Shown in pieces: positions 4,230-30,784 of a DNA stretch of 32,766 nucleotides. Every line of letters begins with the position of its first letter. Positions within the stretch are counted from its first letter, which is position 1. The notes below the pieces were generated by a model that ran no database searches, was not told the origin of the DNA, and was given only the letters and a program-made list of their open reading frames with translations. This DNA comes from Eubacteriales bacterium (GTDB taxonomy: Bacteria > Bacillota > Clostridia > Saccharofermentanales > UBA5734). The DNA is taken from positions 1-32,766 of the forward strand of contig JAQVJP010000016.1 of assembly GCA_028695145.1 (NCBI GenBank). Reading direction: 5' to 3'. The position numbers and the translations under genes are program-made.

Positions 4230-5549
4230 TTATTTGCTATCCGGAATAACAGCATAGAGATATTCATCAATATAATGACCAATATGTTCCATTATTAATT
4301 GTTCAGGAGCCGCACTTATTCGACCGGCTCTATGCGCCTGATAAGACCAAGGCATGTACTGGCTGAGGATCGAAAGCGGAATCTTATTTTGTGACATATT
4401 GGTAAACAGACGTCTTATAGAAGCATCCACTTCCGGATCAGGCAGATAATAACGTGCTCTGTCAGAGAAGCTGTAAGCCCTGGCAAAAGCCAGCTGCTTT
4501 GAATCTCCGTGATAATGCTTCTGCCAGTTGCCGGGATTTGCCAGCATCTGTTTCTCAAGAACAGCTCTGAAATCAGATAGACCGCCGGGGGCATCTTCGG
4601 CAGTCAACAGTTCACGCTCGATTGCTTCGAGGGCGAACAACGCCTCGCGCAAAGCAAACGTCAGCGCAGGACCTACTTTGAGAATCGCTATGCCATCTTC
4701 AACCATTTCGCGCAGACCTTGTGGTGTCTGATAATCTGTGGAATGTCCTTCAAAAACACCCTGTTGCCAATCCTTAAGAGAAGCTGTCAGTTCAGCAGCT
4801 TTTTTTCTGTCATATTCATGAACTTCACTATCACCAAATTCAACGCCGGGCTGTACTACCAGACCGATTACGCGTTCCCAGGCTGAATCAAGACCAAGAC
4901 TGCGGAATTTATCTTCAAAAGTGGTCAATGTTGTCCGGCAATCCTCAGGAGTAGTAACGCTAATACTCTCTTCAGCTGACTGCGCGCCACCGGGTATCGG
5001 AACTTCACTGCCAATGATATAAACAGGCTGCTCAACTTCAGGCTTAACCTTCTTAAGTTCCTGCCAGGTATCTTCCGCCACCTTGCATAATCTGGCGCCG
5101 CGAGCCGCGATAACCTCATCAGACAATCTCGCATGCTGGTCATCATCTGCCAGACGCATTGATGTATCAAGATGAATTTTTGTAAATCCCGCAAGAACGT
5201 ATTGGCGTACCAGTTCATCAGCATAGGCCATGGCTTGTTCCTCAGACTGAGAAGTTCTGGTCAGAGGACCCAGATGGTCACCTCCAAGAATCAAACGTTC
5301 TTTTGGGAAACTCATCTCATCTGCCAAGTTGTAAACATAGGCAGCGAAGTCAGCCGGCTTCATACCTGTATAACCACCGTTTTGGTCAACCTGATTAGCT
5401 GTTGCCTCAATCAAAGCTGGCTGATCGCAAGCAAGAGCTCTCTGCAGCACAGATCTCAGTACAATCTCATTTGCTGTACAGGCAGAATAAATGCCAACGG
5501 CCTGCCCCTGTTTCTGCTTACGAACCATATCAATCATCAAACTACTCAT
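4230..5549 (-). CDS. GatZ/KbaZ-like D-tagatose-(bis)phosphate metabolism protein (non-catalytic aldolase subunit / tagatose-6-phosphate 4-epimerase family)
   Basis: 439 aa. 'KQGQAVGIYSACTANEIVLRSVLQRA', 'LILGGDHLGPLTR', 'GFTKIHLDTSMRLADD', 'YIIGSEVPIPGGAQ' and 'GLREMVEDGIAILKVGPALTFALREALFAL' are typical of GatZ/KbaZ. RBS-like GAGGATACA before ATG. Confidence 0.85.
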   Translation of the reverse strand: MSSLMIDMVRKQKQGQAVGIYSACTANEIVLRSVLQRALACDQPALIEATANQVDQNGGYTGMKPADFAAYVYNLADEMSFPKERLILGGDHLGPLTRTSQSEEQAMAYADELVRQYVLAGFTKIHLDTSMRLADDDQHARLSDEVIAARGARLCKVAEDTWQELKKVKPEVEQPVYIIGSEVPIPGGAQSAEESISVTTPEDCRTTLTTFEDKFRSLGLDSAWERVIGLVVQPGVEFGDSEVHEYDRKKAAELTASLKDWQQGVFEGHSTDYQTPQGLREMVEDGIAILKVGPALTFALREALFALEAIERELLTAEDAPGGLSDFRAVLEKQMLANPGNWQKHYHGDSKQLAFARAYSFSDRARYYLPDPEVDASIRRLFTNMSQNKIPLSILSQYMPWSYQAHRAGRISAAPEQLIMEHIGHYIDEYLYAVIPDSK

Positions 5550-5564
5550 TGTATCCTCCAGAAA

Positions 5565-6611
5565 TCAATCATTTGTCAATAGGATTTTCCCTTTAACAGC
5601 GCCGGGTATACGATACATGTCAAAAGCATCGGCGATATTGGCCAGAGGCATTCTCTTAAACACCATGCTATCCTCAAGACGCAGCTCACCTGTACCGAAA
5701 TAATGGGCTGTCAGAGTCCATTCACGCCCGGGGAACGGAGCTGAGTAACTCATCCATGAACCAGTCACCTTAAACTCGCGTCGGTTCATCTTCTCCCAGA
5801 GCTCAGCACTGAACTCAACAGGTCTGGTAGGTGTGCCGATACAGCAGAATGTACCTTTACCTGCGGTAAGATCGAAACCCATCTTGATGGTTACAGGCTG
5901 GCCTGCGGTTTCAAAAACGAAATCAAAACCTCTGCCATTTGTCAGTGCCATTGCCTGTTCCAGATAATCACTATCTTTTGTATTGATAGTATTAGCTGCT
6001 CCCAGTCTCGAAGCAAGAGCCAGACGATCATCATCAATATCGAACACGGTTACACTTCTGGCGCCAAGGATATTAGCCCATTGCATAGCCAGAATACCGA
6101 TATTACCCCCGCCAAGAACAGCAACATCTGTCGCTCCGCGAAAATCAGCCTGGAACAAGCCATGAAGAGCAACTGTAGCCGGCTCAAAAAGGGCACCTTG
6201 CTCGAAGGTTACATTTTCATTAAAAACAATTGCATTGCGTTCAGGCAACTCTACATACTCGGCAAAAGCTCCCGGCTGTCTGGAGCCGACAAAACCATAA
6301 TGGCGGCATAGAGCGTAATTACCTTTTTGACAGTCTTCACATTTAAGGCAAGGCATAAGAGGGGCTCCGGCCACACGATCTCCTACCTTGATTGTTTCAA
6401 CACCTTCACCTACTTCAACGACTTCTCCGGCAAACTCATGTCCGAGAATAACCGGATAAAAATGTGCGGCATCACCCAAAACACGCGGCAAATCACTGCC
6501 ACAAATACCACAAACACGCATGCGAACTTTTACCATGCCTGCACCTGGTGTAAAATCAGGCCAATCCGCATATCTGATATCATCCTTGGCGTACAGTACT
6601 CCAGCTTTCAT
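5565..6611 (-). CDS. Zinc-dependent alcohol/polyol dehydrogenase (galactitol-1-phosphate 5-dehydrogenase/sorbitol dehydrogenase-like MDR family)
   Basis: 'RVCGICGSDLPRVLG', 'GHEFAGEVVEVGEGV', structural Zn site 'CLKCEDCQKGNYALC', Rossmann 'VAVLGGGNIGILAMQWANILGA'. Confidence 0.88.
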   Translation of the reverse strand: MKAGVLYAKDDIRYADWPDFTPGAGMVKVRMRVCGICGSDLPRVLGDAAHFYPVILGHEFAGEVVEVGEGVETIKVGDRVAGAPLMPCLKCEDCQKGNYALCRHYGFVGSRQPGAFAEYVELPERNAIVFNENVTFEQGALFEPATVALHGLFQADFRGATDVAVLGGGNIGILAMQWANILGARSVTVFDIDDDRLALASRLGAANTINTKDSDYLEQAMALTNGRGFDFVFETAGQPVTIKMGFDLTAGKGTFCCIGTPTRPVEFSAELWEKMNRREFKVTGSWMSYSAPFPGREWTLTAHYFGTGELRLEDSMVFKRMPLANIADAFDMYRIPGAVKGKILLTND

Positions 6612-6622
6612 AATTCAATACC

Positions 6623-8149
6623 TCACTTATTTTTCAAGTCAGCCAGCTTATGCATGGCGTCCTTAAGACTCGGATATAATGATTCGTATATTTCATAATA
6701 TGGTTCATAGGCATCATGTTTATCCATGTCTGGCTGATGACGACGCTGAATGCTAACAGTCATGTCTACGGCTTGTTCATAGGATTTATAAACTCCAGCG
6801 CCCACACCGGCAACCATAGCCGCACCCCAGGTGGTAGCTGTATCAGCAGAGGGCACAACAAATTCTGTGCCTGTAATATCAGCTTTTATCTGAGTCCAGA
6901 TACGAGAATTTGCGGCACCGCCCATTGCTCTGAACTCGGATATCTCAGCACCAACTTCTCTTGCTATTCTGACATTATGTTCAAGCGCGAAAGCTGTGCC
7001 TTCAAGAATAGATCTGATAAGATCACCACGTTTCTTATCGTAACCAAGACCAAAAAACACACCCTGAGCCTTGGCATCCCAAATCGGACTTCTCTCACCG
7101 GCCATATATGGAAGATAGATTAATCCACGACTGCCAAGTGGAGATTCTGAGGCCTCATCATCCATAACAATAAACGGAGATAAGCTATTTTCACGACCGA
7201 TCTGCTCTTCGGCAGCGCCAAGCTCACGCGAAAACCAGGCAAGAGTTCCACCGCCGCCAACCGTACCACCCTGCAGCAGCCATTGACCCGGAACAAGATG
7301 AGGACTTAATATCAGCTGCGGATGTGCCAATGCGCTATCGACACAAATTGACATACCGCCTGCCTGGCCACCCTGCTCCTGAGTCTGTCCAGGTTTACAG
7401 ACACCTGCACCAAGAGTCCCACAGGCAGCGTCGAGACCACCTGCAACTACAGGTGTCCCCTGCTTAAGTCCGGTCTGTGCGGCAGCAAGCTCTGTAACCT
7501 TCCCAACGACAGCATCTGAAGGTACAAGTTCCGGCAATAAACGCGTCTCTATTTCCAGATCACGTGCCAGGTCATAATCATATTCAAGCTTAGCTTCATT
7601 GAAAAAATGCCAAGCATAACCTTGAGAATAATCATGCGTAACAGCACCGGTAAGTCTATAAGCTATAAAGGCGTTACTGCCAAGTATTTTGTCAGTTTTT
7701 AAAATCAAATCTGGATGATTCTTCTGCAGATACAGCAGCTTAGGCGTTACATAGCTCGGTTTGAATGGATTTCCGGAAACCGCGAAAATTCGCTCAGCAC
7801 CAATTTTCGCTTCCGTTTCTGCTGCCAGCTGATCCGCACGGGTGTCCATCCAAATCGGGTTTCTGGCCAGCACATTACCCTCGCTGTCAATTGGAATACA
7901 AGACCAGCTCTGTCCGTCAATACCAACAGCGGCTATAGTCGAGACATCAACTCCACGGTCAATAATATCACGAATTCCGACGCATACAGCGTCCCACCAG
8001 TCATTTACATCCTGCTCCACATGTCCCGGTTTGGGATGATAAACAGGATAGTCCTGTGTACTTGAGGCAATGACACTACCATTATCGGCATTAAAAGCAG
8101 CTATTTTGCAAGCTGAAGTACCGATATCAATACCAAGTAAAACTACCAT
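6623..8149 (-). CDS. FGGY-family carbohydrate kinase (xylulokinase-like)
   Basis: 'MVVLLGIDIGTSACKIAAFNADNG', 'AVGIDGQSWSCIPID', 'PIWMDTRADQ', 'GLDAACGTLGAG', 'YLPYMAGERSPIWD', 'AMGGAANSRIWTQIKADITG'. The ORF track extends to 8245, but ATG at 8149 (preceded by gatgaggtg) is preferred because the upstream part contains a promoter. Confidence 0.9.
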   Translation of the reverse strand: MVVLLGIDIGTSACKIAAFNADNGSVIASSTQDYPVYHPKPGHVEQDVNDWWDAVCVGIRDIIDRGVDVSTIAAVGIDGQSWSCIPIDSEGNVLARNPIWMDTRADQLAAETEAKIGAERIFAVSGNPFKPSYVTPKLLYLQKNHPDLILKTDKILGSNAFIAYRLTGAVTHDYSQGYAWHFFNEAKLEYDYDLARDLEIETRLLPELVPSDAVVGKVTELAAAQTGLKQGTPVVAGGLDAACGTLGAGVCKPGQTQEQGGQAGGMSICVDSALAHPQLILSPHLVPGQWLLQGGTVGGGGTLAWFSRELGAAEEQIGRENSLSPFIVMDDEASESPLGSRGLIYLPYMAGERSPIWDAKAQGVFFGLGYDKKRGDLIRSILEGTAFALEHNVRIAREVGAEISEFRAMGGAANSRIWTQIKADITGTEFVVPSADTATTWGAAMVAGVGAGVYKSYEQAVDMTVSIQRRHQPDMDKHDAYEPYYEIYESLYPSLKDAMHKLADLKNK

Positions 8150-12371: not shown

Positions 12372-13682
12372 TTAGTTAACAATACGCCTTACAGAAATAG
12401 GTTTCATGCCATAAGAGCTGAGACTGGATACGTTAGTAGTGGCAATCTGCTGTCTATTCCAGGAAGCATGCAGCATCTGTCCATTGCCAACATATATTCC
12501 AACATGTGTTACCGCGGTTCTGCCGTCGCGACTATTGGCGTCCATAGCAATGATATCTCCTGGTCTTATATCGCTCATCGAAACTTCCATACCAACATTA
12601 AGATAAGAGTATGATGAACGAGGAATATTGATACCTACTTGACGATACACCCAGGATGTATAGCCTGAACAATCAAAACCACTTAGGCTTGAGCCACCGG
12701 AAACATAAGGAACTCCGATGCCTGACCAGGCAATATCAACAATAGCAGCCAAATCAGCATTGCCGATAACAGCACCGGGATTCGATGAAGGTGCCGGCTC
12801 ATTCTTCTTCTGGCTGGCAGCCTCTTGAGCCTGTTGTGCCGCGATTACAGAAGCAGGTACATCCGGCGTTAAATATTTACTGGCAACATAACCCTCAGTT
12901 CCACCTGATGTTTTTATTAGTGACCAGCCATCACCAACTCCGATACGAGTTACCTTGTCATCCTCGCTGAGTTTAGTTAAAACCTCAGCTTCGGCATTAG
13001 GTTGAGATCTCACGTTAAGGCCTGAAGCATCAACATATCTAAGTTGTTCAACAGGTATAAAAACCATTTCACTTGTAGCATATTCTGCAACTATGTAACC
13101 GGTCTTACCGTTATACTCCACACGCAGCCATTCTTCTGACTCACCATTCACATTTACCTTTTTACCCATTGGTATCTTTTCGATAACAGGCGCCTCTTCC
13201 GTGTGGTTCTGTCGCATATTTAATTCAGAAGCACTGATATAGAGAGTTTTCTGTACCGGTTCAAAAATTGACTCAACAACAATTTTCTCAGGTTCCGCAG
13301 ACTCATCTTCTACTGTTGCCTGAGATTCAACTCCATCAGAAATTGTCTGAGCATCAGCCTCAGTCGAATCAGCCGCTTCAGGTTCTACTGCTACAGAAGT
13401 TTCAACAACATCACCGGCAGTAAGATCCTCTGACTGACTCCTGCTTAAACCATCGCTGCCAAGATTCATACCCTCAGGAGCAGATAACATACTCTGAGAA
13501 GAATCTACTGATTGCTCATCTGCAGATTGAATAACAGGCTGTTCAATTTCTTTTGTTTCGGAAGTCACAATAGTCGTCAGACCAAGTGGCTGACTCATGA
13601 CAGGTGCCGCTATGACTACAGATAATACGGCTGCAACCATAATTGACTGCATCTGCCGGCTCTTAAGCTGTTTAAGTTTCAT
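12372..13682 (-). CDS. Secreted cell-wall hydrolase: signal/TM, two SH3b domains, C-terminal NlpC/P60 endopeptidase
   Basis: SH3b repeats ('LYISASELNMRQNHTEEAPVIEKIPMGKKV...', 'RYVDASGLNVRSQPNAEAEVLTKLSEDDKV...'); NlpC/P60 'YVSGGSSLSGFDCSGYTSWVYRQVGINIPRSS...HVGIYVGNGQMLHAS'. RBS GGGAGG. Confidence 0.93.
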   Translation of the reverse strand: MKLKQLKSRQMQSIMVAAVLSVVIAAPVMSQPLGLTTIVTSETKEIEQPVIQSADEQSVDSSQSMLSAPEGMNLGSDGLSRSQSEDLTAGDVVETSVAVEPEAADSTEADAQTISDGVESQATVEDESAEPEKIVVESIFEPVQKTLYISASELNMRQNHTEEAPVIEKIPMGKKVNVNGESEEWLRVEYNGKTGYIVAEYATSEMVFIPVEQLRYVDASGLNVRSQPNAEAEVLTKLSEDDKVTRIGVGDGWSLIKTSGGTEGYVASKYLTPDVPASVIAAQQAQEAASQKKNEPAPSSNPGAVIGNADLAAIVDIAWSGIGVPYVSGGSSLSGFDCSGYTSWVYRQVGINIPRSSYSYLNVGMEVSMSDIRPGDIIAMDANSRDGRTAVTHVGIYVGNGQMLHASWNRQQIATTNVSSLSSYGMKPISVRRIVN

Positions 13683-18438: not shown

Positions 18439-19941
18439 TCAAAAACCCATACTGCTGAGTCTGTTGGCTGCATATCCAGCCAGTTCGCCGTTGGGAAAAT
18501 TCTCAACAACATATTCGAAATAGGGTTTTGCCTCGTCATATTTCTCAAGTTCCTGATAGCAGCGGCCACAATAATATGCCACATGCCCGTTATAATTGTC
18601 AGGATCATAATCATAAGCCTGCAGATAATCCGCAAGAGAAGCTTCATAATCCCCTGCGGAAAACAGCTTCCTACCAGATAATCTCAGTGAATCTGCTGCG
18701 GTAGTGGCAACGGAAGAATACAAAGAATCAATATCCTCTTTGAGTTGCGAACTGACAATGGCAATAATATCACCACTTGGTTCATCCTGCAGCTCAACCA
18801 TTCTTGCGTCAGGTATGTCAGATATCTCATCTGACAGAGGCTTAAGAAGGTCAGCCGCCTGAAATATATCCTGACTTTGTATTTCAAAAGCCTCCGTATA
18901 AGTTTCATAAGCAGTCAATAAACGCTGCCGTTCCAAATCTTCAGGTGCGATAGTTGACTCAGTAGTAGTTTCCAAAGCCGTAGTAGTAGTTGTTGTAGTT
19001 GTTTCAGAAACAGTAGGCTTAGTCGACGGTTCAGTTGGTTCAGAAGTGTGACCACTGTCATCGACTGGATTTATATATTCATTATACTCCTGCAGCAGAG
19101 CAAGAACTTCATCGTTATCATTAGCCAGATCACCAAGACGTCCTTCAAGCCATTCAAGGCGGCTATTCATATCAGGGCTCTGCTCTTCTCTGCCTATAAG
19201 GCCTGCGATCATAAATCCGCCCCACACAAGAAGTCCAATGCCTAAAACAATAACAAATATAGGTATGAAACGGCGCAGACGTTCAAATAAAGATATTTCA
19301 AAAACAATATGTGTCTCTTCCTGTTCAGGAAAATCAGCCCGACGCATAACATCTTGTTTTTCCTTCTCACTGGCCATTCTGACCCGCTGCCTGCGTCCGG
19401 TTGGTTGTAAAATCTGAGCACCGGTACCCGGAATACTGCTGATAACCGACGCTGACATTTCATCCTCAGAAATTATCTGTTCAAGATCATCATCTGAACT
19501 ATTCTTATTGATATTTTTCTTAGCACTTTTGTTTTTCCTGCTATTTTTATCAGACCTTCTATTTTTTTGATCCTGTAGTCTCTGCTGTTCAATGATCTGC
19601 AGTTGTTTTCGCGCTTCTGATAAACACCTGACAACCTTATCATGCTCTTCTTCTGACATGTCAAGAAGTCTTGCGTGTTCAAGGTGTTCAGCAGCTTCCG
19701 CGTATTGTCCAACTTGCATCTGGCAGCATCCAAGCAAAAATGCCGCATGCGCGAACAGAGGATATGTATTTGCCAGTCTCTTAAGGGCAATCAAAGCGAT
19801 ATCGAAACTATCAAGACCAAGCAGATCAACAGCCTTATTATAGGTTGAAACAGCTTGCTCCATCTCACGAGGCGGCGCAAACATGCCGATATCATCGATA
19901 TTAAGATGACCAAACCGCTCAATTTCCTTCTGCCAGTCCAC
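18439..19941 (-). CDS. TPR-repeat single-pass membrane protein
   Basis: N-terminal TPR-like repeats, basic low-complexity region, TM 'FIPIFVIVLGIGLLVWGGFMIAGLI', Thr-rich linker (TTTTTTTT), C-terminal TPR 'DYDPDNYNGHVAYYCGRCYQELEKYDEAKPYFEYVV'. GTG start at 19941 (RBS GGAG, 5-nt spacing) preferred over the ATG at 19977, which overlaps folC. Confidence 0.8.
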   Translation of the reverse strand: MDWQKEIERFGHLNIDDIGMFAPPREMEQAVSTYNKAVDLLGLDSFDIALIALKRLANTYPLFAHAAFLLGCCQMQVGQYAEAAEHLEHARLLDMSEEEHDKVVRCLSEARKQLQIIEQQRLQDQKNRRSDKNSRKNKSAKKNINKNSSDDDLEQIISEDEMSASVISSIPGTGAQILQPTGRRQRVRMASEKEKQDVMRRADFPEQEETHIVFEISLFERLRRFIPIFVIVLGIGLLVWGGFMIAGLIGREEQSPDMNSRLEWLEGRLGDLANDNDEVLALLQEYNEYINPVDDSGHTSEPTEPSTKPTVSETTTTTTTTALETTTESTIAPEDLERQRLLTAYETYTEAFEIQSQDIFQAADLLKPLSDEISDIPDARMVELQDEPSGDIIAIVSSQLKEDIDSLYSSVATTAADSLRLSGRKLFSAGDYEASLADYLQAYDYDPDNYNGHVAYYCGRCYQELEKYDEAKPYFEYVVENFPNGELAGYAANRLSSMGF

Positions 19942-19957
19942 GCTATCTCCTCCGAAA

Positions 19958-21445
19958 CTATTGTTCAGTATTCTCACCCTGCAGCAACCGCTGCCTTACA
20001 GCACCAATCAAATAAAGCGAACCAAAAACACATAGCACCTTATCTGAGCTGTCATTGAGGCTCACGGCGTAATCTGTCGCGATTCCCGCATCCTCTGAGT
20101 AAAATACCAGATCTGCATTATTATAACTGTTGCGATGCATTGTTGGCAATGAAAACAGCTCACGATCTGTAATAGCAGCAATATATTCTGCCAACTCATA
20201 AGCAGGCATCGCACGAACACTAAGTGGTGTCGTGCAAATAACAGAATCCACTACATAGCGATCACTCATAAGTAAAGGTTTGAGCATTAACTCAACATCC
20301 TTATCAGCAAGCATGCCAACAAGAAAAATAATTCGCCTGTTTGCGGTAAGCTCACCAAGAGTATCGGCCAGTGCCTGACATCCTTGTGGATTATGTGCAC
20401 CATCCAAGATAATTGAACCATGCGCTTCAGAGGCACCGGCCAACAATTCGAAGCGCCCCGGCCAGCGCGCCAATCTGATAGCCGGAAGAATGATATTCTG
20501 TAACAGCTTCGCCGAAGATTTATCATTGATAAAACTGTTGCCGAAGTCCAATTCATTTTTAAATAAGTATAAACAAACCGCAATAGCCATCGCTGCTAAT
20601 TGGGGCTGATAAACCGCTGGCATCAAAATATCAAAAGAGATTTCGCCAAAACTTTTCAAGCGAAAACTCTGTCCGTAAATGTCACGACTTATTACTTCAT
20701 AGTCATTTGAAGACATAATATTCAGAACAGCTTTTTTTTCGCCACATACCCGCTGAATAACCGCCAAGGCAGCTTCCGCCTCGTCAACACCGGCAAAAGA
20801 ATCTAACGGGTCATATAGCCAGACCGGTCTGTTCTTCTTAATAATACCAGCTTTGTGTCCGGCAACACTCACAGCATCTGAACCAAGCCAGGCAGCATGA
20901 TCAAATCCAAGAGCAGTTATAACACTTACTAATGGTGCATAAAAAATATTTGTAGCATCTTCAAGACCACCCATACCAGCTTCCATAATAACCACATCGC
21001 AATGTTCAGCTTGGAAATGCAGGCAAGCCATGGCTGTGAGCCTCTCGAACTCACTTGGAATACCAACATCAGAATTTTCCATCTTGTCAATTGCCAGATT
21101 CAGGATTTCCATATAATGCAAAACGGAAGCTTCAGAAATCTCACCATAAGTTTCATCAGTTGACAAACGCATTAAGTCTCTTGAGCCATTAACAACCCTG
21201 ATCGACTCACTGCGTCTGATAAGATGCGGTGATGAGAACCAACCAACCCTGAAATCAGCTTGAGCTAAAATTGCGTTACAATAACAGCCAAATGATCCTT
21301 TACCATTTGTTCCAGCTACCTGAATAACCTTAAAATCATGTTGTGGGTTACCAATCAGCTCCAGTAGTTTTTTTATCCTCTCAAGACCTGGTTTAATAGC
21401 CGCTGCTCCTCCCGCCCGAAAAAAATCATCAATCGATTGTTTCAT
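19958..21445 (-). CDS. folC: Folylpolyglutamate synthase/dihydrofolate synthase
   Basis: 'VIQVAGTNGKGSFGCYCNAIL', 'VGWFSSPHLIRRSESIRV', 'IMEAGMGGLEDATN', 'SIILDGAHNPQGCQAL'. Confidence 0.93.
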   Translation of the reverse strand: MKQSIDDFFRAGGAAAIKPGLERIKKLLELIGNPQHDFKVIQVAGTNGKGSFGCYCNAILAQADFRVGWFSSPHLIRRSESIRVVNGSRDLMRLSTDETYGEISEASVLHYMEILNLAIDKMENSDVGIPSEFERLTAMACLHFQAEHCDVVIMEAGMGGLEDATNIFYAPLVSVITALGFDHAAWLGSDAVSVAGHKAGIIKKNRPVWLYDPLDSFAGVDEAEAALAVIQRVCGEKKAVLNIMSSNDYEVISRDIYGQSFRLKSFGEISFDILMPAVYQPQLAAMAIAVCLYLFKNELDFGNSFINDKSSAKLLQNIILPAIRLARWPGRFELLAGASEAHGSIILDGAHNPQGCQALADTLGELTANRRIIFLVGMLADKDVELMLKPLLMSDRYVVDSVICTTPLSVRAMPAYELAEYIAAITDRELFSLPTMHRNSYNNADLVFYSEDAGIATDYAVSLNDSSDKVLCVFGSLYLIGAVRQRLLQGENTEQ

Positions 21446-21909
21446 TTCGCACTCCTGAACACGAAGAGTTTACTAAACACATAATTGCCGGCAAGCACAA
21501 GAAATTGTGTCAGCAGCTTACTTATTAGTAACTCCCACGGCCCAAACCTTAAAACAGCTTTCATCTGAAGCACATCGGTCAGAAGAAACATCGCACCATA
21601 CTCAAATGCAAGCGCGGTAAAAACCCGGGCAGCTACAAATTTACCAAGTTCTGGCCAAAATGGACCATTTGAACGAAAAACAAAAGTCCTGTTAGCCCAA
21701 AAAGCAAATAGTATAGCAGCAACGATAGCCGGGAAATTAGATATCCACCATTGATCAGAACCAAATATCCTGGTCAACAAAGTGAAGACAACCAGGTTTA
21801 CCATGGTTGTCAACACGCCGGCGATTATGTATACGATTATTTCCCGATTAAACAGGAAAGATAGTCTTTTTAACATTAATTTCGTCTCACTTCTTAGCTG
21901 TCTGATCAA
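21442..21909 (-). CDS. GtrA-family membrane protein
   Basis: About 150 aa with four TM segments; 'IVYIIAGVLTTMVNLVVFTLLTRIFG...FWANRTFVFRS'. 4-bp ATGA overlap with folC. The start codon is uncertain: TTG at 21909 or ATG at 21876. Confidence 0.85.
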   Translation of the reverse strand: MIRQLRSETKLMLKRLSFLFNREIIVYIIAGVLTTMVNLVVFTLLTRIFGSDQWWISNFPAIVAAILFAFWANRTFVFRSNGPFWPELGKFVAARVFTALAFEYGAMFLLTDVLQMKAVLRFGPWELLISKLLTQFLVLAGNYVFSKLFVFRSAK

Positions 21910-23444
21910 TCAACACGTCTAATTTTTGGCGGCTTAACATGCACATTTTCTTGGAACATACCTTCTGAATCAGGATCGGTGGGTCCCTTCGGTCCACCAC
22001 CGCCTCTATTTCTTACCGTTAACCAGACCAATAAGCCCGTAAGAATAGCTGTAATAGCAGCAAGTATGAGTGTTGATATGAAAAAAGGATTGGCAAATGG
22101 TGATTCTGATTCCGGTTCCGGTACAGGTGTGGGAGTCGCCTCCGGTGTAGGAATCGGTGTTGGTGTAGGATCAGCTTTTATCTTAGTTGCTTCATATGGG
22201 AAAATCAATCTTGTCGATTTCTGATAGAGATAGAACCCCTTGTCGCCCTGCTCGCTCATAAGATACAACAAATAGAGATCTGACTCATTTTCTTCATCAT
22301 CTTCAGAATAGTAGCGCCAGCAATCAAAATGCTCACCGTCAATCGTTATTCTGGCTTCAACAAATCCTTCAGGCAGCTCAATATTCTCTTCAGCAGGGAT
22401 TCTGGTAAATAGTGCTCCTGGAACGGTCAGCTGTGCGAAGCGATAGAAACTGCCGCTCTCTTCGTCATAAAAATAGAAACCAGATTCCGGACCTTCATTA
22501 CTCAGGTATAGCAAAATCATGCCACCACGAGTTGATTTCCAAGCTGTTACCATATTGCCATTGATCTCGATGGCAGCCTCATAAAAACCAGCTGGAACCT
22601 CAACCTCTTCCGGGAGTTCTACAATTGAAAAAGCACTGCCATCCACATCTACAGAAGGGGGTGGCGTCGGTGTCGGTTCCGGTGTTGGTGTCGGCGCCGG
22701 TGTGGGCGTCGGACCGGTTCGATTTGCTGTGATTGTATATGTTTTCGTTGATCCGTTTTCTGCTGTCACGACAATTTTTATCGTATTAGCGCCATCACGC
22801 AAGCCGGTATTACCACTGACCTGAACTGAAAGCGCTTTTGAATCTTCGGCTTTTGCAGTAATATTTATCTGACTTACACCCATGGCTACAGGCAAAGTAT
22901 AATTCTGTGTCCCTGGTGAAAATGATGGTCTTAGTGTACCCTGGTCAACAGCCAGCGATGCCAGATTAGCGTTTCCAGATTTGGGAGGAATAATTGAAAT
23001 AGATGCGCTTGATCCAGCAGGCGGCGTCTCTGATGCGACTTCTGCATCAATCACTGTAAACTTAACTTCACCGGATTTTATAGCAGTAAAATTAAATTTG
23101 CACAAGTTAGAAGCGTTTACTTCACTACCGGTTGCAACCACCCTGATATTTCCATCTCTTGGATTATCATCAACTAGTGACATTCCAACAAGATCAGAAA
23201 AGCCATCATATCTTACAAGATTCGGATCATAAGTTATTTCAACAACATAATTACCAATAGGCAGTTGAGTTGTCGCCGAGGCTGTAACACTGAAACTTCC
23301 ACCAGCTTCGATGTTTGAATGGCTTGAGCTTAAGACAACCCCGACACCTTCCGCAAATACACTTGTATTGCCAATAGTTAATGGTGCAAATACAGTTAAT
23401 ATTAGAATAATTGGAATCAGAACATTAGCTATAAGTTTTCTCAA
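21906..23444 (-). CDS. Secreted membrane-anchored protein: cohesin-like domain, cadherin-like beta-sandwich, Pro/Thr linker, duplicated unknown domain, C-terminal TM
   Basis: Signal peptide; cohesin-like 'GVVLSSSHSNIEAGGSFSVTASATTQLPIGNYVVEITYDPNLVRYDG...CKFNFTAIKSGEVKFTV'; cadherin-like 'NLASLAVDQGTLRPSFSPGTQNYTLPV...TIKIVVTAENGSTKTYTITANR'; (TP)n linkers; TM 'FFISTLILAAITAILTGLLVWLTV'. Confidence 0.8.
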   Translation of the reverse strand: MRKLIANVLIPIILILTVFAPLTIGNTSVFAEGVGVVLSSSHSNIEAGGSFSVTASATTQLPIGNYVVEITYDPNLVRYDGFSDLVGMSLVDDNPRDGNIRVVATGSEVNASNLCKFNFTAIKSGEVKFTVIDAEVASETPPAGSSASISIIPPKSGNANLASLAVDQGTLRPSFSPGTQNYTLPVAMGVSQINITAKAEDSKALSVQVSGNTGLRDGANTIKIVVTAENGSTKTYTITANRTGPTPTPAPTPTPEPTPTPPPSVDVDGSAFSIVELPEEVEVPAGFYEAAIEINGNMVTAWKSTRGGMILLYLSNEGPESGFYFYDEESGSFYRFAQLTVPGALFTRIPAEENIELPEGFVEARITIDGEHFDCWRYYSEDDEENESDLYLLYLMSEQGDKGFYLYQKSTRLIFPYEATKIKADPTPTPIPTPEATPTPVPEPESESPFANPFFISTLILAAITAILTGLLVWLTVRNRGGGGPKGPTDPDSEGMFQENVHVKPPKIRRVD

Positions 23445-23504
23445 GTAATTATTCCTCCGAGTTTATATATATCGGACATTTTAGCATGACTACTGCTTTT
23501 TTAG

Positions 23505-25973
23505 TTATTCCTGACTGATATTTGACACTTGCAATACATGATTGAATATTTTGTTCAAATCTGCCGAAGAAATCTTCGTGTTTTTATCTATATCAGCAGC
23601 AGATCCATAGACACCTTCAAGACTACTGGTTTGCAACACATGATTAAAAACCTGATTCAGATCCACAGAAGTAATACGGCCATCACCGTTCACATCACCA
23701 TATATCACGATTTTATAATCCTTTGATATCAAGTTGTCATAACTTACACGTACAACACTGCCCGTACCAAGCAGATCGGTCTCTGTGGCAGGTGTACCAT
23801 CATTCTTAAACACCTGAACCTGATAACCGGCTGTCACACCAAGATTTGCTACAAACTGCTGCACTTGATTTAACTGCTTCGCAGGATCAAGACCCGTCAT
23901 CTGATCATTGCTGACCTTAACTATCTGCTGACTGAAGTTTAGTGCCGGCACTTCCTGCTGCGGCAGATTAACATCTGATGGTACAGAACCATCCTCTGCT
24001 TTTCTGATTATGCTTACAGTATACTCACGCCTGTCCCCGGCTTCAGAAATACCTGTTATCTTAAATATATTTGTACCAGGCATAATAGGGTATGCTCCGG
24101 CACCTTCGACCTTTGCTTTTGCATTTATAGTAGTCGCGCTAATATCTACTGTCGCAAATTCATTATTTAGAGTAATCGAATACTCAGTCTTCGCGGGATC
24201 AAAAGCCTGATTCATTGCAAGTCCTGAAACATCAAGGGTTTTTAGCCATGGATTACGATTTCTGGCATCAGTTGGTAAAGAAACAGGCTCCTCAGGAATA
24301 CCAGCAATAACAGGTATGAGAAACTCAAAACTACCATTAAGCTGATTCATTGATTTGTAAGTATTATAATTTGTCTTGCCTTCAGAAAACGGCGCTAAAA
24401 TATTACCCATGTACTGATGCCAGAAAACACCATATTTTTCATCGTTGATTAAATCAAACTTTTGGAAATACAAAGTATCCTGTTTATAATCAAAATATTC
24501 ACATCCTATGAACAGCGCACCACCAACAATAGAACGCCAAGGTGAATTCCAGGGAATTAAGTATTTATTATCGGTCGCTGTCTGTTCTGCTTTTCTACCT
24601 GGACCATAAAGGGCGTATTCCAAACCATTTCTCACATTTATACCTGTTTGTGTGGCACCTATATTGTAATAGTTATATAGATTTCGCAAATCGAGTGTGC
24701 CATAGGGATCATTATATGTACCTGTTACTGATGGGCTTCGATTTCCGACTTCTTGCTTTGATCGTGATGCAAGATGGTAAGGACTAACATTAGAACGTTC
24801 GGCGGCTTCCATGAAGAAATCTATTTGAGTCCCGGTTTCAATTCCCCCAACAGGAGAATTTGAAGCATCATATCTTTGAAACTGATAAGACTCTCGTCCA
24901 TCCATAAAAGTATTTGACAAAAGTTTTTTAACACCTTCACGTGTATGCAAACCTGGTATGTAAGCAATTTTTTCAAACATAAAAATGGAATACTCATTCA
25001 ACCAATTCCTTGGGTCCATATAGTACGCTATAGTTTGTCTGCTTGCCATGACCCATTTGCTACCATCGTAAGTTTTCCACTCGTCATCTATATAGTTATA
25101 AGAACTGCTTCCATAAGATTTTAAGGCATTGTAACTATCTTTATTAAGCCCATAGTATGAAGAAAGATAATCAGTCCAATTCGATGGAATCAAACTTCTT
25201 CCCGCAACCTCTTGATTATTAAGTATTGTTTCCCAATCATATTTTGATTCAATAAAAACGGGGGTAAATTTCCAGTTAGGGTATTTAATCTTCATTTCTC
25301 TTAATGAAGACCAATAACTTGAAGGAAAACCAAGTTTTTGAAACTCAACAAAATATGGATCATCTACCGGAATATCTTCATCAATTTGGATTAAAGAAGC
25401 AACCATATATCCGGAAATCACGATTCCCTCAGGTTTCGTATATTCAATTTTATACCATTGGTCACCGTAAAGTGATGTCATTTGACCTGTTACCTTTGAA
25501 GTGACATAAACTCTAGTATTCTTTGCTAAGGTTTCAAGCTTTGTTGAATAAGAAGTTGCTTCTGCGCGCACATTAACTCCACTTCCAGTTACAGTTGCCC
25601 AACGATTAATCTCAGTTTCAGCACTTACACTGGATAAGTTCCCAAACAGAGGACCCACCTGTACAAGAGTTATTGCCAAGATCAAAAACAGCACAAGCAT
25701 TCTGAATGCAGAAGCCTTCTTCGTCGATTTGGCAAACTTATGTAACATAGTTGATATAAATCTATTGATTCCGCGGCTCGGCTTGTTTGAACTATGATCC
25801 TTCAAGACCTTCGACATGAATGAATCAGGCCAAATCACCGAAACGTCTCCCAGTGTTCGCGAAGTAGAAATAGGCTTATCATCATAATTATATTCACCTG
25901 CAACTTCACTGGTCACAGTTATATTTTCTAAATCTTTTCGATTTTTTTCTACAGATTTAACATTCACCTGCAT
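23505..25973 (-). CDS. Membrane-anchored glucosaminidase-like cell-wall protein with SH3b, cadherin-like and C-terminal dockerin-like domains
   Basis: About 90-aa cytoplasmic N-terminus, TM 'FRMLVLFLILAITLVQVGPLFG', SH3b 'WATVTGSGVNVRAEATSYSTKLETLAKNTRVYVTSK', glucosaminidase-like 'DPRNWLNEYSIFMFEKIAYIPGLHTREGVKKLLSNTFM...SPYHLASRSKQEVG', dockerin-like 'GDVNGDGRITSVDLNQVFNHVLQ...ADIDKNTKISSADLNKIFNHVLQ'. RBS GGAGG before ATG. Confidence 0.85.
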   Translation of the reverse strand: MQVNVKSVEKNRKDLENITVTSEVAGEYNYDDKPISTSRTLGDVSVIWPDSFMSKVLKDHSSNKPSRGINRFISTMLHKFAKSTKKASAFRMLVLFLILAITLVQVGPLFGNLSSVSAETEINRWATVTGSGVNVRAEATSYSTKLETLAKNTRVYVTSKVTGQMTSLYGDQWYKIEYTKPEGIVISGYMVASLIQIDEDIPVDDPYFVEFQKLGFPSSYWSSLREMKIKYPNWKFTPVFIESKYDWETILNNQEVAGRSLIPSNWTDYLSSYYGLNKDSYNALKSYGSSSYNYIDDEWKTYDGSKWVMASRQTIAYYMDPRNWLNEYSIFMFEKIAYIPGLHTREGVKKLLSNTFMDGRESYQFQRYDASNSPVGGIETGTQIDFFMEAAERSNVSPYHLASRSKQEVGNRSPSVTGTYNDPYGTLDLRNLYNYYNIGATQTGINVRNGLEYALYGPGRKAEQTATDNKYLIPWNSPWRSIVGGALFIGCEYFDYKQDTLYFQKFDLINDEKYGVFWHQYMGNILAPFSEGKTNYNTYKSMNQLNGSFEFLIPVIAGIPEEPVSLPTDARNRNPWLKTLDVSGLAMNQAFDPAKTEYSITLNNEFATVDISATTINAKAKVEGAGAYPIMPGTNIFKITGISEAGDRREYTVSIIRKAEDGSVPSDVNLPQQEVPALNFSQQIVKVSNDQMTGLDPAKQLNQVQQFVANLGVTAGYQVQVFKNDGTPATETDLLGTGSVVRVSYDNLISKDYKIVIYGDVNGDGRITSVDLNQVFNHVLQTSSLEGVYGSAADIDKNTKISSADLNKIFNHVLQVSNISQE

Positions 25974-28969: not shown

Positions 28970-29602
28970 TTATTCATCACTTAACTGATCAAGCGTCAGT
29001 TTATATGAAGGCAGAAAATGATCAATGAAGTGCTTGACTTCAGGCATGTCCACTTCCTGGAGATAATTTCGCAAACTGTTTCTGGCCTGTACAAACTCTG
29101 GGTTGCCAGCTTTTTCCTCATCAAGACACTTAATATACGCACTAAGCTTATCGGCAGCTTTGACAAATTTAATTGCCTCGGCCAATTCAGGAGTCTCCTG
29201 CGAAGGCAACATCAGATCGCGATAATCCGTACGTAATTCCTCCGGAAGCATTGATAATAACTTCTCAGTCGCCACTTCCTCAACCATTTTATATGAATCA
29301 CGAATCTGTGGATTAAAATATTTCACCGGAGTAGGTAAATCACCAGTTAGGATTTCACTTGCGTCGTGGAACATGCCCAGAAGCGCTGTCATTTCCGCTG
29401 AAGGACAGATACGTCCTTCGCTATAATAATGACGGCGAAACAGCACCAGAGCATGTGCTATCAGAGCAACTTGAAGTGAATGCTCCTGAATATTCTCTTG
29501 TTCTGTATTACGCATCAAGCCCCAGCGGTTGATATAGCGCATTCTGTGCAACATCGCGAAGAAGTGGAAACTATTATCTGCTGGTTCATTTGTATCTCTC
29601 AT
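28970..29602 (-). CDS. HD-domain hydrolase, YfbR-like 5'-nucleotidase
   Basis: 'MRYINRWGLMRNTEQENIQEHSLQVALIAHAL...LGMFHDASEILTGDLPTPVKYFNPQIRDSYKMVEEVATEKLLSMLP'. Confidence 0.88.
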   Translation of the reverse strand: MRDTNEPADNSFHFFAMLHRMRYINRWGLMRNTEQENIQEHSLQVALIAHALVLFRRHYYSEGRICPSAEMTALLGMFHDASEILTGDLPTPVKYFNPQIRDSYKMVEEVATEKLLSMLPEELRTDYRDLMLPSQETPELAEAIKFVKAADKLSAYIKCLDEEKAGNPEFVQARNSLRNYLQEVDMPEVKHFIDHFLPSYKLTLDQLSDE

Positions 29603-29656
29603 TTTAATTTCATCCTCATATATCCAACTATATATTCAACAAAAATACCAAATCCT

Positions 29657-30784
29657 CTATATCCAGTATATTGACTCAAATTTCCTTGTAGCGTAGCTGT
29701 CGGACATGCCGGCAATATAATCTGCTATCCTTCTGGCCGTCGGTTCATTCTCTGTTCCCGGATGACTGCGCAGATAATCAGCCAAACCGGATAGTGTGCC
29801 GTTCTTACTGCGAGCCAGTTTTTCGGGATCTATCGCTGCCTGATAGAGAGCTTCAAATAATCCCTCAATTACATTCTCGGCCATCCTCTCGTAACGGGCG
29901 ATTTTTTCTGAACGGTATATACGATTGAAATTTTCCTTCAGCAGCTCCTCCATACTAAGTCCTTTTTCCGGGCTCAATATTATAGCATCCTGCTGATAAC
30001 TATTGGCTATTATATCAGTAACAAGTGTGTTAATAATCTCACCATTTGTCTTACCAAGCGTTGTCCTGATTGCAGAAGGCAGATCATCAAACTCCATGAT
30101 ACCGGCTCTGGCGGCATCTTCAATATCACGTCCGACATAAGCGATTTTATCGGCCATGCGGACAACACAGCCTTCAAGGGTTGCCGGAGCGCCGTGACAC
30201 ATGGCAAGTGCTTCGAGCTCGTCAGAATTTTTGCTTCTATCTGGTCTCAAAGTAAACTCGTTATAACGTTCTCCGCAATGACTGGCAATGCCATCTCTGA
30301 CCTCAAAAGTCAGATTAAGACCACGCCGACCGTTTTTTTCTGCCAGAAGATCAACTACTCGCAAGCTATGAAGCTCATGCTGGAAGTATAAATTCTCATC
30401 AACTTTTTTCAGACAGCGATTCAATACTTTTTCTCCGGTATGCCCAAAAGGAGCATGTCCGAGGTCATGTCCAAGAGCGATCGCCTGTATTAAATCAGAA
30501 TTAAGCCCCAGTGCTCTGCCGATGGTATTGGCGATATAGTTCACGTAGATTACATGTTCCATACGAGTGCAGATGTGGTCATTTTGAGGATTAAAAAAAA
30601 CTTGCGTCTTATGCCTTAAACGACGGAAATCAACCGAGAAGATAATTCTTCCGGCATCTCGTTCAAAATCAGTCCTGACAGTACATTTATCCTGTTCATA
30701 TTCTCGCCCGCGACTGTCAACACTGCGCATGGCATAAGGACTGAGAAATTTCTCCTGATCTTCCTTGAGTAGTCTTGGCAGCAT
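29657..30784 (-). CDS. Deoxyguanosinetriphosphate triphosphohydrolase-like protein (HD domain)
   Basis: 'DFRRLRHKTQVFFNPQNDHICTRMEHVIYVNYIANTIGRALGLNSDLIQAIALGHDLGHAPFGHTGE', 'ASHCGERYNEFTLRP'. RBS GGGAGG. Confidence 0.92.
   Translation of the reverse strand: MLPRLLKEDQEKFLSPYAMRSVDSRGREYEQDKCTVRTDFERDAGRIIFSVDFRRLRHKTQVFFNPQNDHICTRMEHVIYVNYIANTIGRALGLNSDLIQAIALGHDLGHAPFGHTGEKVLNRCLKKVDENLYFQHELHSLRVVDLLAEKNGRRGLNLTFEVRDGIASHCGERYNEFTLRPDRSKNSDELEALAMCHGAPATLEGCVVRMADKIAYVGRDIEDAARAGIMEFDDLPSAIRTTLGKTNGEIINTLVTDIIANSYQQDAIILSPEKGLSMEELLKENFNRIYRSEKIARYERMAENVIEGLFEALYQAAIDPEKLARSKNGTLSGLADYLRSHPGTENEPTARRIADYIAGMSDSYATRKFESIYWI

Follow-up and report, generated by a model that had tools for sequence, protein, structure and literature searches.

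Introduction

Contacts between cohesins and dockerins are among the strongest known and have been studied mostly in the degradation of plant fibre. Surface proteins carrying a single cohesin are known, such as OlpA and OlpC. In cell wall metabolism, SpdC is a multi-pass membrane protein of the CAAX-protease family. In Staphylococcus aureus it holds and tunes the glucosaminidase SagB (PMC12272431). Non-cellulosomal cohesins and dockerins have been described in Clostridium perfringens and in amylosome and mucinolysome variants (PMC12997984); for C. perfringens the X82 cohesin of NagJ (GH84C) and its partners are attributed to Adams 2008, according to its citation in PMC12997984. Wall hydrolases that carry a dockerin have also been described from ruminococcal cellulosomes, under the 'lyticome' idea (PMC6403190). 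As to specificity, positions 10 and 11 of each dockerin repeat are determinants of binding, and the internal symmetry of the repeats supports a dual-binding mode (PMC8063739, PMC5429695). A search of the open-access literature returned no account of a peptidoglycan glucosaminidase that has a membrane cohesin dedicated to it.

The locus presented here encodes a predicted glucosaminidase with a dockerin (P0001) and a membrane-anchored cohesin protein (P0002). It shares with the C. perfringens system single cohesin modules, the lack of a scaffoldin array and secreted glycosidases, and C. perfringens NagJ has the closest solved cohesin to that of P0002, both by sequence and by fold. However, the C. 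perfringens cohesins sit on the secreted glycosidases themselves and several dockerin enzymes combine, whereas here the cohesin belongs to a membrane-anchored non-catalytic protein and the predicted partner is a peptidoglycan glucosaminidase encoded by the next gene. As in the case of OlpA and OlpC, a surface-anchored cohesin is predicted to recruit one dockerin enzyme, but those proteins come from a cellulosomal organism in which single-mode dockerins have been reported (PMC5429695), and the dockerins here are symmetric. A dockerin on a wall hydrolase is the feature common with the ruminococcal enzymes; these were proposed to dock on a multi-cohesin scaffoldin, whereas no scaffoldin is present here. 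The likeness to SagB-SpdC is an analogy of function only, the membrane partner and the contact being unrelated.

Results and Discussion

Gene organization of the locus

The window, i.e., the whole 32,766-nt stretch of DNA that was analysed, is the entire contig C91 of a 2.77-Mb draft genome in 223 contigs. The open reading frames of P0001 and P0002 were both confirmed at the coordinates given in Table 1; they lie on the minus strand, 60 bases apart, with good ribosome sites ahead of both. Searches with custom profiles revealed an operon that is kept across the order, in the arrangement dGTPase - YfbR - (paralogous glucosaminidase) - glucosaminidase-dockerin - cohesin-CT-TM - GtrA - FolC - TPR. 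The paralogous glucosaminidase is present in some families and absent in others; the cohesin protein stays throughout. In the window this 927-aa paralogue gave no Pfam match, and a Cadherin-like domain is present in it. A 'Mur ligase' identity considered for a downstream gene was rejected; the gene is FolC, and therefore the neighbours are not all wall genes. Elsewhere in the window, positions 12372-13682 encode an NlpC/P60-type wall hydrolase with an SH3-like domain and without a dockerin.

Table 1. Coordinates of P0001, P0002, their domains and the neighbouring genes in the window.
Feature	Position	Strand	Basis or remark
P0001, exported/membrane-proximal peptidoglycan glucosaminidase (predicted) with C-terminal type I dockerin, 822 aa	23505..25973	(-)	ATG behind AAGGAGG
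P0001 hydrophobic segment aa 92-110, signal peptide or N-terminal TM	25644..25700	(-)	SVSA/ETE cleavage-like site after segment
P0001 SH3_3 domain aa 131-189	25407..25583	(-)	Pfam E=1.3e-7
P0001 GH73-like glucosaminidase domain aa 215-567	24273..25331	(-)	AtlE 4pi7 E=1.6e-5; weak SagB match
P0001 putative catalytic Glu408 (KQEVG)	24750..24752	(-)	Aligned to AtlE ETG motif
P0001 Cadherin-like domain (PF12733) aa 577-657	24003..24245	(-)	Pfam span 581-658
P0001 conserved unnamed pre-dockerin module 'X' aa 685-756	23706..23921	(-)	Own profile; pLDDT about 96
P0001 type I dockerin aa 756-814, repeats DVNGDGRITSVDLNQVFNHVLQ / DIDKNTKISSADLNKIFNHVLQ	23532..23708	(-)	Pfam and PDB matches
P0002, membrane-anchored cohesin protein, 512 aa	21906..23444	(-)	TTG start behind GGAGG
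P0002 cohesin domain aa 29-151	22992..23360	(-)	PDB profile, fold, own-genome E=2e-38, orthologues above Pfam cut-off
P0002 Cadherin-like domain (PF12733) aa 162-242	22719..22961	(-)	Pfam E=1.4e-11
P0002 unnamed duplicated beta domain 'CT' aa 270-417	22194..22637	(-)	Conserved with cohesin across class
P0002 C-terminal TM helix aa 459-477, short cytoplasmic tail	22014..22070	(-)	Hydrophobicity
Upstream paralogous glucosaminidase without dockerin, 927 aa	26175..28958	(-)	SagB-like E=1.4e-6, weak
Downstream operon partners: GtrA-like membrane protein, FolC, TPR protein	18439..21909	(-)	
Upstream operon partners: YfbR 5'-deoxynucleotidase and dGTPase	28970..30784	(-)	

P0001 is a predicted glucosaminidase with a type I dockerin

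The original prediction, made from the sequence, described the P0001 product as an SH3b/glucosaminidase-like hydrolase that ends in two Ca-loop-like repeats. Our analysis agrees on both points. The repeats form a type I dockerin: Pfam Dockerin_1 (PF00404) matched aa 758-813 with E=5.4e-10 and 39.7 bits against a cut-off of 22.9, PDB dockerins were matched at E=1e-7, and the D/N ligands are kept in both Ca loops. The hydrolase description is upheld by the SH3_3 domain, the match to the GH73 enzyme AtlE and the alignment of the catalytic Glu. A Pfam scan of the protein gave no glucosaminidase match, and P0001 would therefore be a divergent GH73 member. The column of its Glu408 holds E in every homologue with a residue at that position, 22 of them dockerin-bearing and 21 of the upstream type (43 altogether). 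P0001 is predicted to hydrolyse peptidoglycan.

P0001 had also been credited with an N-terminal TM of its own. The hydrophobic segment is there, preceded by a tail of 91 aa whose ATG has a good ribosome site, but a cleavage-like site follows it, and the segment may thus serve as a long signal peptide and not as a TM anchor. The X module ahead of the dockerin matched no Pfam family; it is common to the glucosaminidases, the protease encoded on contig C99 (see below) and other dockerin proteins.

The N-terminal domain of P0002 is assigned to the cohesins

P0002 consists of a signal peptide, an N-terminal beta domain, a Cadherin-like domain, the CT domain and one C-terminal TM helix. In the genome scan the N-terminal domain was not called by Pfam as Cohesin (PF00963), scoring 17.4 bits at a cut-off of 24.1. 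Same-locus orthologues in genomes G010, G002, G048, G040, G015 and others are above this cut-off. Comparison of a profile of 20 family sequences with the PDB ranked the NagJ cohesin of C. perfringens first (E=3.8e-10) and many cohesins from cellulosomes after it. The AF2 model of the domain (pLDDT about 94) gave the cohesin 2jh2 as the top Foldseek match, with E=3.9e-8 and a TM score of 0.72 on the target; 5lxv, 2vo8, 6kgf and many other cohesins followed, including 3ul4 and 4dh2, the single type I cohesins of C. thermocellum surface proteins of the OlpA/OlpC type. A second model, of the whole of P0002, again returned cohesins as best matches, and the fold matches obtained with the P0002 model were mostly to the cohesin, not to CT. 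Because the orthologues pass Pfam, the profile matches PDB cohesins and the modelled fold matches cohesins, we assign the domain as a cohesin of jelly-roll fold. An unrelated Ig-like fold, named beforehand as the outcome that would speak against the pairing, did not appear among the best PDB fold matches, and the downstream neighbour indeed begins with a cohesin and ends in a TM helix. The CT domain matched nothing in Pfam or in PDB sequences. All complete cohesin proteins start with a signal sequence and carry a TM helix at the C-terminus, and therefore the cohesin is expected to face outward at the membrane.

The genome holds two dockerin-cohesin pairs and no cellulosome

Searches of the whole genome found only two dockerins and two cohesins, and these are arranged as two adjacent pairs, so that dockerin-cohesin adjacency occurs far more than chance would give. 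In the second pair, on contig C99 (positions 4523-7384), the gene for a subtilisin-like protease that ends in a dockerin precedes a cohesin gene truncated by the contig end. Dockerins and cohesins occur one per protein, with no scaffoldin array in the genome, and no GH9 was found in it. A cellulosome combines a multi-cohesin scaffoldin with many dockerin enzymes acting on plant polysaccharides; the composition of this genome differs from this, which supports the claim that the locus is not part of one.

The gene pair is conserved across the order and the class

We surveyed 58 genomes of relatives with the Pfam cut-offs for dockerin and cohesin. A dockerin is present in 38 of them, 30 of which have exactly one. 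The same genomes contain 24 Pfam cohesins above cut-off. For 20 of these, a Pfam dockerin lies no more than about 700 bp away; of the remaining four, one shares its protein with a dockerin and two lie at contig ends. When our cohesin profile was used, a cohesin neighbour was found downstream in 30/33 glucosaminidase-dockerin genes that have a downstream neighbour, and in two of the three exceptions the neighbour scores E=0.004-0.006 for cohesin. As the profile was trained on many members of the order, independent support comes from the Pfam count and from loci of other orders, outside the training of the profile, where a cohesin neighbour was seen in 7/9 cases. The co-conservation of the pair proposed as a check is thus borne out in the order, by the conserved operon, and in the class.

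A class-wide search showed that other families share this architecture. The genes that flank the pair in the order's operon were not seen there, but at loci L134-L137, L139 and L142 a hydrolase-dockerin gene still adjoins a cohesin-CT gene. In family f4 (L093, L094, L104, L106) the cohesin is a stand-alone TM protein encoded between the hydrolase and the CT protein, and at L076 the dockerin is on a different protein, yet still adjoins the cohesin. As both the stand-alone cohesin and the relocated dockerin remain adjacent to their counterparts, gene fission and shuffling leave the pair together. At L080 (genome G046) a dockerin is present with no recognisable cohesin next door. In family f2, comprising one genus (L084-L092), the membrane protein is retained immediately after the paralogous glucosaminidase, and its cohesin-like domain has diverged. 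Most f2 genomes are without any dockerin, and therefore the domain must either be capable of something else or be a relic.

Dockerin contact residues vary among lineages and follow the cohesin

At positions 10, 11, 17, 18 and 22 of 38 non-redundant dockerins, the two repeats of one protein agree at 0.68, and repeats of different proteins at 0.17 (z=17, 0/20000 permutations). Agreement at loop positions 2, 4, 6 and 7 is 0.39 within vs. 0.29 between, and positions 8 and 16 of the same dockerins show no excess of within-protein agreement. A second dockerin set, from other orders, gave 0.87 within vs. 0.22 between. Since contact positions agree within, not between, proteins, the comparison suggests that the contact code varies freely among lineages and that both dockerin faces change together. 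Dockerins without a paired cohesin are also fairly symmetric (0.60 vs. 0.78, p=0.02). Repeat symmetry was therefore rejected as proof of adjacency; it marks functional cohesin-binding dockerins and not pairs.

For 19 pairs, divergence of the dockerin contact residues tracks divergence of the cohesin (partial Mantel r=0.27, p=0.001, with species divergence measured on FolC removed), and for non-contact residues of these dockerins no such relation was found (r=0.08, p=0.24). The contact residues of the window dockerin are S-V/F-N vs. A-L/K-Q in the C99 dockerin, and owing to this difference cross-binding between the two pairs of the genome is predicted to be absent.

Proposed role of the pair and alternative explanations

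Domain identities, co-conservation and rarity in the genome all support the core of the original prediction, a one-to-one cohesin-dockerin pair that involves a wall hydrolase. From the sequence comparisons and models we consider it quite probable that this is a private pair in which the membrane cohesin captures the exported peptidoglycan glucosaminidase. The C-terminal TM helix would display P0002 on the outer face of the cytoplasmic membrane and leave the N-terminus, which bears the cohesin, free. P0001 would be exported, its SH3 and glucosaminidase domains engaging peptidoglycan, and its C-terminal dockerin would dock into the cohesin; Ca2+ is probably bound in the complex, and two orientations related by 180 degrees are probably both allowed. 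In this way a GH73-type glucosaminidase could move no further than a given distance from the membrane, the site at which nascent glycan strands emerge; the tether would limit where the enzyme cuts and prevent its loss. We infer binding, its Ca-dependence, tethering and an effect on glycan strands; most likely the pair fixes how far from the membrane the exported glucosaminidase can reach. Both glucosaminidases of the locus weakly resemble SagB, which, together with the SagB-SpdC precedent, suggests by analogy a role in the trimming or release of nascent strands. An AF2 model of P0001 and P0002 as a read-through pseudo-fusion, a modelling device in which the stops are read as residues, folded both domains well and gave a pTM of 0.54 with nothing firm on the contact.

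Several observations stand against parts of this reading. Given the N-terminal hydrophobic segment of P0001, a tether may not be needed; the dockerin at L080 without a recognisable adjacent cohesin and the cohesin-like domain kept in the mostly dockerin-free family f2 do not fit a private pair; and the argument from repeat symmetry is weakened by its being a general dockerin property. There is also a contrast with C. thermocellum, whose non-cellulosomal enzymes recruited directly to the surface are reported to use single-binding-mode dockerins (PMC5429695). The same f2 genomes, and the fact that Ca-loop modules can be structural, favour an absence of mutual binding, with the dockerin as a structural Ca-binding module and the P0002 N-terminal domain as a generic beta-sandwich kept in the operon; we regard this as very improbable, as the fold is that of a cohesin and not a generic Ig, the pair travels together outside the operon, and at the contact positions the repeats are symmetric and their divergence follows that of the cohesin. 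That the membrane cohesin is a general dock for several dockerin proteins, a small surface scaffold, also seems improbable: the genome does encode a second dockerin protein, the C99 subtilase, and five dockerin matches occur in genome G054, but most genomes have a single dockerin, the two dockerins of this genome differ in contact residues, and that of C99 has an adjacent cohesin of its own.

Beyond a tether, the cohesin might also regulate the glucosaminidase, its geometry setting the position or length of cleavage as SpdC does for SagB in S. aureus. This is conceivable, in our opinion rather doubtful. The membrane partner SpdC determines how long the products of SagB are (PMC12272431), the two glucosaminidases encoded here weakly match the SagB family, and the conserved CT domain near the membrane could contribute. 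However, the SagB match is far below the cut-off (20.9 bits vs. 425), and P0002 is a single-pass protein, with one C-terminal TM helix and without a match to SpdC.

Returning to the proposed private pair, it is conserved over the class and in genomes with no other dockerin. In a wider reading, which we consider less likely than not, the cell envelope throughout this bacterial class would rely on cohesin-dockerin pairing for a housekeeping function: private pairs would hold peptidoglycan glucosaminidases at the membrane, each lineage having changed its code with the two dockerin faces kept identical, and cellulosomes may elaborate such a module. The one-to-one pair, if true, would assign a concrete function to non-cellulosomal modules that are otherwise scattered, and would offer a simple test system. 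Its dozens of natural versions, diverged from one another, could be used in specificity studies and in protein engineering.

Expanded and fused variants

The glucosaminidase-dockerin protein of genus g2 is an expanded form of 1492 aa (L070, 8299-12777), and the assemblies of its relatives break inside the gene. A separate small dockerin gene in this genus was considered and rejected: the frames are cut by contig ends, and genome G010 has the intact 1492-aa protein. At L111 (G006, contig C59, 3712-10995) one protein of 2427 aa contains both modules, the dockerin close to the N-terminal end and the cohesin close to the C-terminal end. L124 (1725-10798), from an Erysipelothrix-labelled MAG, encodes a 2419-aa Cadherin-like array with a dockerin, in which no hydrolase domain was recognised, directly upstream of a cohesin-Cadherin-TM protein. 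At L109 (G054, contig C40, 768-8067) a dockerin protein of 1937 aa is followed by a protein with two cohesin-like domains.
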